In this document: positions 7,154-19,543 of the stretch, in pieces
How positions within the stretch are numbered: the first letter of the stretch is position 1
How the letters are laid out: each line of letters starts with the position of its first letter
Origin: Hyphomicrobiales bacterium
GTDB taxonomy: Bacteria; Pseudomonadota; Alphaproteobacteria; Rhizobiales; Aestuariivirgaceae
DNA length: 44,606 nucleotides
Assembly (NCBI GenBank): GCA_027024225.1
Contig: JALVSR010000037.1
Coordinates: forward strand, 1-44,606
Direction: 5' to 3'
The notes under the pieces: generated by a model
What the model was told of the DNA's origin: nothing
Databases searched by the model: none
Seen by the model: the letters and a program-made list of their open reading frames with translations, nothing else
Program-made: the position numbers and the translations under genes

Positions 7154-7744
7154 ATGGATATGGCGCCGATGTCGGAAGACAACCTAGGGGATAAAATCCA
7201 CACGATCAACGCGCGGCTGAAGGGCCGCTCCATCGTGCTCATCGGGCTGATGGGCGCGGGCAAGACCACCGTGGGGCGCCGGCTGGCCAAACGGCTCGGC
7301 TTGCCATTTGTGGATGCCGATCATGAAATCGAGCGCGCGGCGGGCAAATCCATCGAGGAAATCTTTGCGGAAGACGGCGAGGAATTCTTCCGCGCCGGTG
7401 AGGAGCGCGTAATCGCCCGGCTGCTGGAAAACGGTCCGCAGGTGTTGGCCACCGGTGGTGGGGCATGGATGCGCGAGGCCACGCGCGAGCGGGTGAAGGA
7501 GCGTGGAATTTCGGTATGGCTGAAGGCGGACCTTGATGTGCTCATGGAGCGCGTTTTGCGTCGGCCGGGGCGGCCGCTGCTGAAGAACGACAACCCGCGC
7601 GCGGTGATGGAGCGGCTCATCGAGGAACGTTATCCCGTTTATGCGCTGGCGGACATCACGGTGGAGAGCTGCAACAAGCCGCACAACGTGGTGGTGGGGC
7701 GCATCATCCGGGCGCTGGCCGACTGGCTGGAGAGGCAGGAATAG
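7154..7744 (+). CDS. aroK: Shikimate kinase
   Basis: 196 residues from ATG 7154, which has GGTGA at 7144-7148 as a ribosome-binding site; a GTG three codons earlier lacks one. The P-loop is GLMGAGKTT (about residues 31-39), followed by the shikimate-binding DADHEIE, then the ATGGGAW turn and the lid RRPGRPLL. It phosphorylates shikimate at the 3-hydroxyl in the aromatic amino acid pathway, and the next pathway gene, aroB, follows on the same strand. The ~20-residue N-terminal extension before the kinase core is common in alphaproteobacterial AroK. It is transcribed divergently from the xerD group. Confidence 0.96.
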   Translation: MDMAPMSEDNLGDKIHTINARLKGRSIVLIGLMGAGKTTVGRRLAKRLGLPFVDADHEIERAAGKSIEEIFAEDGEEFFRAGEERVIARLLENGPQVLATGGGAWMREATRERVKERGISVWLKADLDVLMERVLRRPGRPLLKNDNPRAVMERLIEERYPVYALADITVESCNKPHNVVVGRIIRALADWLERQE

Positions 7745-7765
7745 GTCCGCTCACTTGAAGTTTTC

Positions 7766-7894
7766 TCACAACCCCTTGAATGTCAATGGTGAAATCGCTC
7801 TGCGACGGACCAAGGGCCCGCCATTGACATTCAAGGGGTTGTGAAAAGAATGGCAAGGAAGCGCCAATGGCGAGAAATCGCCATTGGCGCTTCC
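7766..7894. repeat. Composite palindromic element, copy 1 (aroK-aroB gap)
   Basis: Part one is a perfect 24-bp inverted repeat (arms 7766-7789 and 7821-7844) around a 31-nt loop that itself holds a small hairpin (TCGC-TCT-GCGA, 7795-7805). After a 12-nt linker comes part two: a hairpin with a 17-bp stem (7857-7873 with 7878-7894) and a GAAA tetraloop. A second copy with the same architecture lies at 9105-9235. It is not a simple terminator, as no T-tract follows either stem. It ends 35 bases before the aroB start, so if transcribed it would form the aroB leader. Confidence 0.85.
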
Positions 7895-7929
7895 CTCAGC
7901 AGGAAAATATCCGAAAAGTAACCTCGGCG

Positions 7930-9081
7930 ATGGAAGACAATGCGGTAAGGAACAGCACGGTGGAAACGACGCAAACGGTGCGGGTGGAGCCCACCGGCTG
8001 GCCAGCCTATGACATTCACATCGGGCCGGGCCTGCTGCCCCGCGCCGGGGAGATCATCCGCCCGCTGCTGGCGCGGCCGAAGACGCTGGTGGTGACGGAT
8101 GAAAACGTCGCCCGGCATCACCTGGATGCGCTTTCCGCCAGTCTGAACGCGGCGGGCATCGAACACGCGGTGACGGTGCTGCCCGCGGGCGAATCCACCA
8201 AGAGCTGGCAGCACCTGCAGGAGCTGGTGGAGGAAATTCTTGCCCAACAGCTCGAGCGCAACGATCATATCATCGCCTTCGGCGGGGGGGTGATTGGCGA
8301 TCTCGCGGGCTTCGCCGCCGCCATCGCGCGGCGCGGCATGCCGTTCATCCAGATTCCCACCACCCTGCTGGCGCAGGTGGACAGTTCCGTCGGTGGCAAG
8401 ACAGGCATCAACTCGCCACATGGCAAGAACCTCATCGGCGCCTTTCACCAGCCCTCGGTGGTGCTTGCCGACACGGACGTGCTGGCCACCCTGCCGCGGC
8501 GCGAGCTGCTGGCGGGATATGCCGAGGTGGTGAAATACGGCCTGCTGGGCGATGCGGACTTTTTCGCGTGGCTGGAGGCGCACGGGAACGACGTGCTGGC
8601 GCTGAAGCCCGAGGCCATCATTCACGCGGTGGCCACCTCGTGCCGGGCCAAGGCCGCCATCGTGACGGAAGACGCGCGGGAGAAGGGCAGGCGCGCGCTG
8701 CTGAACCTTGGCCACACCTTCGGCCACGCGCTAGAGGCTGCGCTGGGCTATGACGGCACGCTGTTGCACGGCGAGGGCGTGGCCATCGGCATGGCGCAAG
8801 CCTTACGCTTTTCCGAGAAGCTGGGCTTGTGTCCGCCGGGCCGGGCGGCGCGGGTGGCGGAGCATCTTGCCGCCGTTGGCCTGCCGGTGGATCTGCGGGC
8901 CATTCACAATCGCCTGCCTGCTCCGAAGGACCTACTGGAGCTGATGCGGCAGGACAAGAAGGCCAGCGGGGGGAAGCTGGTGTTCATCCTGGTGCGCGAT
9001 ATTGGCGAGGCCTTCATCGCGCGCGACGTAGCGGAAGAGGATGTGCTGGCCTTCCTGCGCGAGGAGCTTGCCGAGGCCTAG
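7930..9081 (+). CDS. aroB: 3-dehydroquinate synthase
   Basis: 383 residues from ATG 7930. A start 21 codons earlier (7867) is open but would be encoded by the hairpin of the repeat element, so it is rejected. Family motifs: the NAD-binding GGGVIGDLAGFAA, the lysine-containing QVDSSVGGKTGIN, the metal-binding stretch AEVVKYGLLGD, and LNLGHTFGHALE with H-based zinc ligands, then LLHGEGVAIGM. It converts DAHP to 3-dehydroquinate, the second step of the shikimate pathway. It lies downstream of aroK, and copies of the palindromic element lie on both sides. No strong ribosome-binding site precedes the start. Confidence 0.96.
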   Translation: MEDNAVRNSTVETTQTVRVEPTGWPAYDIHIGPGLLPRAGEIIRPLLARPKTLVVTDENVARHHLDALSASLNAAGIEHAVTVLPAGESTKSWQHLQELVEEILAQQLERNDHIIAFGGGVIGDLAGFAAAIARRGMPFIQIPTTLLAQVDSSVGGKTGINSPHGKNLIGAFHQPSVVLADTDVLATLPRRELLAGYAEVVKYGLLGDADFFAWLEAHGNDVLALKPEAIIHAVATSCRAKAAIVTEDAREKGRRALLNLGHTFGHALEAALGYDGTLLHGEGVAIGMAQALRFSEKLGLCPPGRAARVAEHLAAVGLPVDLRAIHNRLPAPKDLLELMRQDKKASGGKLVFILVRDIGEAFIARDVAEEDVLAFLREELAEA

Positions 9082-9104
9082 CAATTCCAGGCAGAGATGC
9101 ATTG

Positions 9105-9235
9105 TTTCACAGCTTTTCGAATGTCAAGGATGGCCCTTCGGGCCACCGCGAAGCGGTCTTGTCCTCGACATTCGAAAAGCCGTGAAAAGAATGGCGAAGA
9201 AGCGCCAATGGCGGAAAATCGCCATTGGCGCTTCT
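9105..9235. repeat. Composite palindromic element, copy 2 (aroB-transporter gap)
   Basis: Part one: 26-nt arms (9105-9130 and 9162-9187) pair at 24 of 26 positions (two A-C mismatches) around a loop of exactly 31 nt, which folds into two mini-hairpins (TGGCCC-TTC-GGGCCA and CCGC-GAA-GCGG). Part two: a hairpin with arms 9198-9213 and 9220-9235, nearly identical to that of copy 1. Here the element lies between convergent genes, so it could also help end transcription from both sides, though no T-tract is present. Confidence 0.85.
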
Positions 9236-9252: not shown

Positions 9253-11019
9253 CTATAGCGGCCAGATGAACAGAATCATGGGAATAGAAACGGCCAGCAC
9301 GATCAGCTCCAGCGGCAGGCCGAGGCGCCAGTAATCGCCGAAAGCATAGCCGCCCGGGCCCATGATAATGGTGTTGTTCTTGTGCCCGATGGGCGTGAGG
9401 AAGGCGCAACTGGCCGCCACCGCCACGCCCATGAGCATGGTGTCCGGGTTCACCCCCAGCGTGTTGGCCACCCCCACCGCCACGGGCGCGGCGATGAGCA
9501 CGGTGGCGACGTTGTTCAACACATCGGAGAGCGTCATGGTCACCACCATGATGAGCGCCAGCACCATGACCGGCGGCAGCCCTTGCGTGAGCCACAAGAT
9601 GCCCTGCGCGATGATGTCCGTGCCGCCGGAGCGTTCCAGCGCCGCGCCGATGGGAATGAGCGAGCCCAACAGCACGATGACCGGCCACTCGATGGCGTCA
9701 TAGATGCGGCTCAAGGGCATGATGTTGAACAGGGCGAAGGCCACCACCACCGCGCCCAGCGCCACCGGCAGATACACCAGCTTCAGCGCCGAGGCGACAA
9801 TCGCCGCCGCGAACAGGGCGATGGCCAGCCACGCCTTCTGCCATTGCGGCACGCTGCGCGCCTCCGTCTTCAGCGGCAGCGCGCCGAGCCAGCGGGCGGT
9901 GGCCTCCAGCACGTTGTCCGGCCCCATCAGCAGCAGTATGTCGCCCGGCCGGATGCGCTCCTTGCGCACGCGCTGGCGGATGGTGCGGCCTTTGCGCGCG
10001 ATGCCCACCAGCACCACGCCGTGGCGCGCCAGCAGGCGCATGTCATCAGCCGAGCGGTTGACGATGCGCGCCTCGCGCGGCACCACAGCCTCCAGCATGT
10101 TCATGGCGTCCGCCAGCAGGTGCGCGTGCTTGCGCGAGCGTGAGACGTTCAGCTTAAGCGCGGCGGCGAACTGCTCCAGCCCCTCCGGCGTGCCCTCGAT
10201 GACGAGCGTGTCGTTGGCGCGGATTTTCAGGTTGTTGCGCAGCCGCTCGCGCTCGCCGCGCCGAACTACCGAAAGCAGCCACACGTCCGCCTCGCGCGCG
10301 TGCTCTTTCAGCTCGCCGACGGTGCGGCCGACGGCCGGGGAATCGGCGGGCACGATGAGCTCCATGATGAAGTTTTCCGGCTCCGCCGCGCTCCTGTCGC
10401 TTGCTCCCTTGCGCTGCGGAATGAGCCGCCAGCCGATGAAGGCAATGAACATTAGCCCCGCCAGCGCCACCGGCAGGCCGACGGGCGCGAAATCGAACAT
10501 CAGGTAGGGCGCGCCCAGCGATTGTTCGCGGAACTGGGCGATGACGATGTTGGTGGGCGTGCCGATGAGCGTGGTCATGCCGCCGAGGATGGTGGCGAAG
10601 GACAATGGCATGAGGGTGAGTGCGGCGGTGCGCTTCGCCCTCGCCGCGGCCTGCATGTCCACCGGCATGAGCATGGCAAGCGCCGCGACGTTGTTCATGA
10701 AGGCGGAAAGGAAGGCTCCCACCCCGCCCATCAAGAGAATGTGCTGCCAGATGGGCCGGGCGGAATCGACGAGCCTACGGGTGATCATCTCCACCACGCC
10801 GGCGCGCTCCAGCCCTTTCGACACCACCAGCACCAGCGCGATGATGATGACCGCCGGGTGGCCGAAGCCGGCGAAGGCGTGCTTCGTTTCCACCACGCCC
10901 AGCATGACCGCCAGCATTAGCGCGCCGAAGGCCACGAGGTCATAGCGCCAGCGTCCCCACAGCAACAGCGCCAGCACCCCGCCCATGATGGCGAACAGCA
11001 ATGCCTGGTCGGCGGTCAT
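9253..11019 (-). CDS. SLC13-family anion permease with two TrkA-C (RCK_C) domains
   Basis: 588 residues from the ATG at 11019, which has GGGAG six bases upstream; an ATG two codons earlier is too close to that site. The N-terminal half has several membrane helices and the DASS-type loop FMNNVAALAMLMPV with SFATILGGMTTLIGTPTN. Two soluble RCK_C-like domains follow in the middle (around residues 215-290 and 310-380: MELIVPADSPAVGRTVGEL and IRPGDILLLMGPDNVLEAT). The C-terminal half repeats the membrane fold with LSDVLNNVATVLIAAPVA and LTPIGHKNNTIIMGPGGY. This resembles sodium- or proton-coupled transporters of sulfate or dicarboxylates; the substrate cannot be told. It converges with aroB. Confidence 0.9.
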   Translation of the reverse strand: MTADQALLFAIMGGVLALLLWGRWRYDLVAFGALMLAVMLGVVETKHAFAGFGHPAVIIIALVLVVSKGLERAGVVEMITRRLVDSARPIWQHILLMGGVGAFLSAFMNNVAALAMLMPVDMQAAARAKRTAALTLMPLSFATILGGMTTLIGTPTNIVIAQFREQSLGAPYLMFDFAPVGLPVALAGLMFIAFIGWRLIPQRKGASDRSAAEPENFIMELIVPADSPAVGRTVGELKEHAREADVWLLSVVRRGERERLRNNLKIRANDTLVIEGTPEGLEQFAAALKLNVSRSRKHAHLLADAMNMLEAVVPREARIVNRSADDMRLLARHGVVLVGIARKGRTIRQRVRKERIRPGDILLLMGPDNVLEATARWLGALPLKTEARSVPQWQKAWLAIALFAAAIVASALKLVYLPVALGAVVVAFALFNIMPLSRIYDAIEWPVIVLLGSLIPIGAALERSGGTDIIAQGILWLTQGLPPVMVLALIMVVTMTLSDVLNNVATVLIAAPVAVGVANTLGVNPDTMLMGVAVAASCAFLTPIGHKNNTIIMGPGGYAFGDYWRLGLPLELIVLAVSIPMILFIWPL

Positions 11020-11225
11020 GCCCATCTCCCGTTCATCGTCGCAAGGTATATCACCGCAGCGGCGGGCTGTCCCCATGTCCCGGCAATTTTCGCGGCGGCG
11101 AATTTTCTCGCCATGGCGCATTCCACCCTCTTGACCTCGCCCACATTCCGGCTTTCCTGTTGACGAAGCCAGAAGCGCCATCTTCGGATGGATCCTTGCA
11201 TTGTTGAACAGCGGGAGAGGTTTTC

Positions 11226-19416: not shown

Positions 19417-19543
19417 TACCGGAATGCATAAAGAACCATCCACCGCCCCGTGCCTCCGCCCACCCTCCCAAATTGTCAAAAACAAGGGCTTGGGCGGGGG
19501 CGCGGGGCGGCTTGCACCGGTCATCCTTTATGCAGCTTGGTAT
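19416..19543. repeat. Palindromic repeat family B, copy 1
   Basis: A long interrupted palindrome: ATACC (19416-19420) pairs with GGTAT (19539-19543), TGCATAAAG with CTTTATGCA, and a 20-bp inner stem (19443-19462 with 19491-19510) pairs fully if two T-G pairs are allowed. It begins at the last base of the rsmB stop. Two blocks recur at 39355-39469: a 25-nt block before and within the 5' arm, differing only by transitions, and GGCTTGCACCGGTCATCC with two changes. From 19544 to 19687 I see no gene. Confidence 0.75.

Follow-up and report, generated by a model that had tools for sequence, protein, structure and literature searches.

A dispersed double-palindrome intergenic element in Hyphomicrobiales whose outer stem arms change in pairs

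Two copies of a large composite palindrome flank aroB in the window analysed here (the whole stretch of 44,606 nucleotides from a Hyphomicrobiales bacterium, contig JALVSR010000037.1 of assembly GCA_027024225.1). A preliminary description of this DNA had remarked that the long stems of the two copies differ at many positions, nearly always with a matching change on the opposite arm, and had proposed that the fold is kept either by selection or by a copying process that restores symmetry. The locus raises an old question, namely whether paired changes in a stem come from selection or from strand copying. Here we establish that the element is dispersed and that its stems evolve in pairs, and we favour arm-to-arm copying, without regarding it as proven, as the main cause of the paired change.

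Each copy consists of a first palindrome (hp1), a linker and a second palindrome (hp2), with the coordinates given in Table 1. The long palindromes and their loops of equal length were borne out in both copies, as were the shared linker sequence, the second hairpins of 15-17 bp, and the difference in the outermost hp2 pair (G-C versus A-T in copies 1 and 2). What had been overlooked is that the loop is made of two mini-hairpins lying in opposite orientation in the two copies, so that hp1 of copy 1 comprises an outer stem, a GTCAA/TTGAC core and an apex reversed relative to that of copy 2. Compared with 200 shuffles, DNA folding gave z scores of -14.0 (copy 1) and -11.4 (copy 2) and RNA folding gave -12.5 and -11.1, and none of the 200 shuffles equalled the copies in either case. 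Copy 1 starts 20 nt after the aroK stop codon, aroB has an alternative start (ATG at 7939), and the convergent gene beyond copy 2 is presumably transporter-like; the names aroK and aroB are those of the preliminary description, and all gene calls were made with a home-made codon score. Sigma-70-like promoter matches (TTGACA or TCGACA, 16 nt, AAGAAT) were present at 7824-7851 and 9165-9192. Elsewhere in the window, positions 19420-19515 hold another inverted repeat that is rich in GC, ACCGCCCCG...CGGGGCGG; it lies near GGAATGCATAAAGAACCA, recurs by eye in L042, L063 and L010 and is apparently a separate repeat family of the genus.

Table 1. Positions of the element copies and neighbouring genes in the window, and of MITE copies at other loci
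Feature	Position	Strand	Measure or basis
aroK, flanking gene	7154-7744	+	home-made gene call
Copy 1 first palindrome (hp1)	7764-7846, palindrome arms 7763-7789/7821-7847		96% of 27 paired; model R1 88.5 bits
Copy 1 apical loop, 31 nt, two mini-hairpins	7790-7820		folding
Copy 1 linker between palindromes, contains AGAATGGC	7847-7856	+	
Copy 1 second palindrome (hp2), type A, GCGCCAATGGCG...CGCCATTGGCGC	7857-7894, arms 7857-7873/7878-7894		17 bp, 100% paired
aroB, gene between both copies	7930-9081	+	home-made gene call
Copy 2 hp1, apex forward	9105-9187, arms 9105-9130/9162-9187		92% of 26 paired; model R1 81.7 bits
Copy 2 apical loop, 31 nt, two mini-hairpins	9131-9161		folding
Copy 2 linker, contains AGAATGGC	9188-9197	+	
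Copy 2 hp2, type A	9198-9235, arms 9198-9213/9220-9235		16 bp, 100% paired
Convergent gene beyond copy 2	9253-11025	-	home-made gene call
MITE copies	L017:2876-3129, L020:2155-2391, L041:3226-3478		
MITE copies	L099:127-380, L069:5576-5829, L094:4547-4799		

A search of the 2.22-Mb genome with a type A hp2 pattern (GCGCCAATGGCG N6 CGCCATTGGCGC, up to 3 mismatches) returned 24 places against zero in the reversed control. At a limit of 2 mismatches, type A hp2 was found in 9 of the 69 genomes of the taxonomic family, all belonging to one genus; this 11-genome genus, which carries the repeat family, is probably Thermopetrobacter. Among named genomes a 9-bp version of hp2 matched 74 stretches, 55 of them from Thermopetrobacter, Hyphomicrobiales MAGs or an alphaproteobacterial MAG, and the remaining 19, from other taxa, were judged by their titles to be chance stem-loops and excluded. 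The preliminary description had suggested a covariance-model search of the genome and its relatives, and had allowed for the two copies standing alone. Model R1, built from 48 hp1 copies, instead gave 67 strand matches in this genome, corresponding to 36 distinct hp1 places, and matched 10 of the 69 family genomes, namely 9 of the 11 members of the genus and one genome of another genus (G005). In a class-wide sample of 385 genomes, searched at low depth with 11 candidates scored per genome, R1 also matched G315 and G381, which represent two other families. In the G315 copies L158 and L160, hp1 again adjoins a second palindrome of unrelated sequence. At the G005 loci L136, L146 and L154, hp1 lies within a larger imperfect palindrome (CGTCGAA..GTCTTCCATG), several copies having similar arms. 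By eye, many copies of types A and B (the two kinds of second palindrome) have the trinucleotide TGG a few bases beyond hp1, as do G005 and one G315 copy.

Across copies, hp1 has an 18-bp outer arm that is free in sequence, a nearly invariant core of GTCAA followed mostly by GG, and an apex of two mini-hairpins. A scan that accepted hp1 when its core was almost intact and 10 or more of the 18 stem positions were paired collected, after removal of identical sequences, 113 hp1 in the genus, of which 71 adjoin a type A second palindrome, 36 a type B and 6 none; hp2 is interchangeable between the two types. The type B hp2 is a near-perfect palindrome, mostly of 21-31 bp, rich in CCTCCCC and GGAAAGAAAA and with A-run/T-run arms. 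Type labels were assigned automatically and at least one is wrong, L115 being labelled A although it is without a true second palindrome. Four of the six hp1 with no second palindrome were left out of the apex and mismatch analyses, and all six out of the orthologue and GANTC counts. Relative to hp2, the apex of type A elements (with the MITE cluster counted once) was forward in 12, reverse in 20, symmetric in 11 and unparsed in 7. Apical triloops were GNA or TNC in 77 of 107, a count in which related copies are not independent, and 39 further loops were parsed as four bases; GNA loops form very stable DNA mini-hairpins. The base of the type A hp1 (TGTTTCAC...GTGAAA; window 7764-7771 and others) resembles, in our judgement, two split parS half-sites. 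It is absent from type B, and the parS reading was therefore dropped. The integron attC motif is RYYYAAC/GTTRRRY, and by eye the base of the element does not match it.

The compensated changes noted in two stems extend to a set of 48 hp1 copies, in which 98.9% of 1392 cells were paired; the corresponding figures were 69.7% for shuffles and 31-44% for slid controls. Cells changed on both sides numbered 405 versus 106 in shuffles, and 21 of the 29 pairs did so at least once versus 18 in shuffles. The 51 distinct arms paired at 16.9 of 18 positions with their own partners and at 7.4 with swapped partners, in a set that came from a scan requiring pairing. When the 24 type A hp2 of the genome were used as an anchor independent of pairing, 21 had beside them an hp1 in which 15 or more of the 18 positions were paired, and three did not.

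Change at orthologous sites could be followed in 17 pairs with hp1 on both sides. Nine of these, at six loci, share type and orientation, have recognisable arms, and make up our main count; the other eight were dropped because type or orientation differed, because the arms were too unlike to be called homologous, or because of decay (L115/L207). Taking one pair per locus, the 102 outer positions of the six loci comprised 71 that were the same, 26 paired changes (14 transitions and 12 transversions) and 5 single ones, where by rough arithmetic about 34 single and 1-2 paired changes would be expected if the sites changed independently, each at about 0.21. All nine pairs together had 33 paired and 5 single changes in 153 outer positions, and none of their 45 core pairs had changed. 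The recognisable pair L115/L207, with one decayed copy and with L115 lacking a second palindrome, had 1 paired and 7 single changes, and its inclusion with the six loci makes 27 paired and 12 single of 119. Among the dropped pairs, L012/L135 had 10 paired and no single changes and L016/L204 had 8 and 2; over all 17 pairs there were 94 paired and 26 single outer changes, with 2 of 85 core pairs changed.

Unbiased copying of one arm from the other predicts that pairs change at the single-site neutral rate, whereas under compensation by way of an unfit intermediate the rate should be lower and transitions should predominate. At flanking fourfold-degenerate sites 317 of 1421 positions differed, 225 by transversion (ten comparisons, not independent), and paired stem change, at 0.25, therefore runs at about the fourfold rate, as unbiased copying predicts. 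The transversion share in the stem (12/26) is below that at fourfold sites (225/317) and so is compatible with some selection, and fourfold sites may themselves be non-neutral. By eye, the apex was turned while the arms were kept between the orthologues L013/L098 and L008/L190, with apices that are themselves unlike in sequence. In the MITE lineage (see below), five copies from Thermopetrobacter sp. TC1 have two unpaired positions in common, which indicates that copying is not automatic, and the unpaired decay in L115/L207 and in a remnant in G066 (described below) counts against the copying reading. On the strand running from hp1 to hp2, mismatches were 40 A-C versus 10 G-T with redundant copies included; counted once per arm cluster they were 26 versus 12 in type A (p 0.03) and 8 versus 7 in type B, and leaving out the MITE cluster gave 25 versus 19. 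We had considered single-strand recognition on the basis of this bias and rejected it, and the asymmetry was not used further, since it was lost once redundancy was removed.

Element sites are shown to lie at gene 3' ends. Among 37 sites in the fetched genome parts, 16 were in convergent, 20 in codirectional and 1 in divergent gaps, compared with 10, 50 and 24, respectively, for other gaps of at least 40 nt at the same loci (p = 0.0006, divergent versus rest). Comparison with relatives shows that the copy between aroK and aroB has been gained. Anchors in the flanks, set to span hp1 and 110 nt to either side of it, are 303 nt apart here and 106-137 nt apart in G060, G061, G062, G063, G064, G065 and G067; in G066, the nearest relative by AroB identity (86%), they are 251 nt apart and enclose a decayed remnant, whose decay is unpaired. 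No aroB was obtained from G068, and G059 did not lend itself to the comparison. Likewise, a gap filled in L012 and L077 is short in L143 (111 and 120 nt), and one filled in L077 at 2251 is short in L135 (97 nt). The claim of a dispersed element thus holds, with copies at many places and gain and decay by lineage. Several orthologous gaps retain an element of one type or another, and type or orientation differs within the same gap in L006/L053, L020/L058, L012/L077, L110/L100 and L011/L041. Functional re-occupation of such gaps was considered and rejected; by rough arithmetic, chance re-insertion could yield about as many, and we therefore do not take re-occupied gaps as proof of function. A type B element with identical arms is common to G065 and G066 (L194 and L206), one flank having 99% and the other 88% identity, which points to either recent transfer or a misplaced contig.

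One subfamily of the hp1+hp2 pair sits within a MITE that has GGGGCTGTCC ends, measures 229-256 bp (usually 254) and by eye is flanked by exact 8-bp target duplications at 6 of 15 distinct places; from the size of the duplication we take this MITE to be IS1595-like. The two copies in the window are by eye without ends of the GGGGCTGTCC type, and no target duplication was seen around them. Nor was a clean target duplication seen for other non-MITE copies, which were inspected unsystematically, and no mobilizing enzyme was found for typical copies.

The main rival to arm copying is that the element is a structured RNA at mRNA 3' ends, a bidirectional terminator or stabilizer, whose RNA fold is selected and whose stems undergo ordinary compensatory substitution; we regard this as possible, though clearly short of an even chance. 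The placement of 36 of 37 sites in convergent or codirectional gaps, the retention of some element type in several orthologous gaps and the A-run/T-run arms of type B hp2 are all in its favour, as are five matches resembling terminators near the two copies in the window; every one is on the minus strand, and 1.5 were expected (sd 1.7). One of the five is hp2 of copy 1, which on that strand has the T-rich tail GCCATTCTTT, so that the earlier statement that no T-tract explains the element has to be qualified. The plus strand, from which aroK and aroB are read, has no terminator-like match, however, and mismatches on the transcribed strand in codirectional gaps were 12 G-T and 17 A-C (redundant copies included), with no G-T bias. 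The frequent paired transversions, the variable order of hp1 and hp2 relative to transcription, and the missing or decayed aroK-aroB copy in relatives also argue against an RNA. That the copies are dispersed promoters, with a -35 hexamer in the hp1 core and AAGAAT in the linker, is a weak and very improbable reading: copy 1 has TTGACA-16-AAGAAT and copy 2 TCGACA-16-AAGAAT (2 found versus 0.3 expected), but type B by eye keeps TTGAC with a linker that has no -10-like sequence, and some type A linkers are AAAATGG.

Known repeat families offer further alternatives. RIME and other Rhizobium intergenic mosaic elements are, by their descriptions, likewise dispersed, palindromic, modular and intergenic. 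No Rfam family matched the window above the gathering threshold, and among the literature matches listed no title or opening of an abstract described the element. To that extent the element is undescribed, as had been claimed, although its layout resembles one already known. The closest known layout, judging from a review (PMC2229807), is that of the CIRs, the Caulobacter CcrM-associated intergenic repeats of Chen and Shapiro 2003. As that review presents them, CIRs are about 110 bp long, intergenic and built of two long inverted repeats and a linker; our element is likewise alphaproteobacterial, intergenic, just over 100 bp and composed in the same way. It is unlikely that the element is a diverged lineage of these repeats, which occur in Caulobacter, Brucella and other alphaproteobacteria. 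In contrast to CIRs as described there, it is nearly without the GANTC loop site (present in 3 of 107 elements; 4 sites in 15.0 kb versus about 20 expected from the density in the window), its outer stem is free, and its hp2 is interchangeable between unrelated sequences. Given the near absence of GANTC, we file it among dispersed palindromic intergenic repeats and not under CIR. Least probable of all, and strongly so, is that the element is of the REP/REPIN or IS200/IS605 type and depends on a Y1 tyrosine transposase for its movement. REPINs are also extragenic and palindromic, with compensatory changes in their hairpins, according to PMC3116915, but Y1_Tnp (PF01797) had no match at E <= 0.001 in the 11 genomes of the genus, several of which are incomplete assemblies, while a control matched in 5 of 14 known genomes. 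That no Y1 transposase was found in the genus argues against both REP/RAYT and IS200/IS605, and the two-mini-hairpin apex and the second palindrome further set the element apart from REPINs.

Between selection and copying, then, the evidence leans towards copying for the outer stem and selection for the core. We give an even chance to the account in which the element is a non-coding, non-autonomous intergenic repeat, with arm-to-arm copying as the main reason why the arms stay equal and with a core that selection maintains. On this account one arm would repeatedly template the other, through template switches made while the DNA replicates or the hairpin is repaired; a change would thereby spread to both arms, and the apex could be inverted. 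Selection would hold only the GTCAAGG core and the apical mini-hairpins, probably as the recognition site of a protein acting on the folded strand. Arm homogenization with spacer inversion is the footprint of template switching in reports on yeast (PMC8604942) and rRNA (PMC8794818); those cases are single sites or rRNA stems, whereas ours is a dispersed family with several loci. Changes in both arms and inverted apices were seen between orthologous copies, with simultaneous change of the two arms as one possible reading, and selection with true compensatory substitution yields the same paired pattern. More speculatively, and with little confidence, the element may move as a folded single strand, with each move or repair renewing one arm on the template of the other, much as in hairpin-transfer replication. 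Only symmetry would then be inherited, the arm sequence would not be information, the apex flip would be a by-product, and hp1 with any second palindrome would, in several alphaproteobacterial families, be handled by a putative enzyme recognising the GTCAAGG core together with the GNA mini-hairpins.

Compensatory changes are routinely taken as proof of a functional RNA, and this family warns that covariation alone is insufficient. Since it offers dozens of stems of free sequence beside a nearly invariant core, together with orthologous sites and a background rate, selection and copying can be separated quantitatively, and the element lends itself naturally to testing how perfection is maintained in DNA palindromes.
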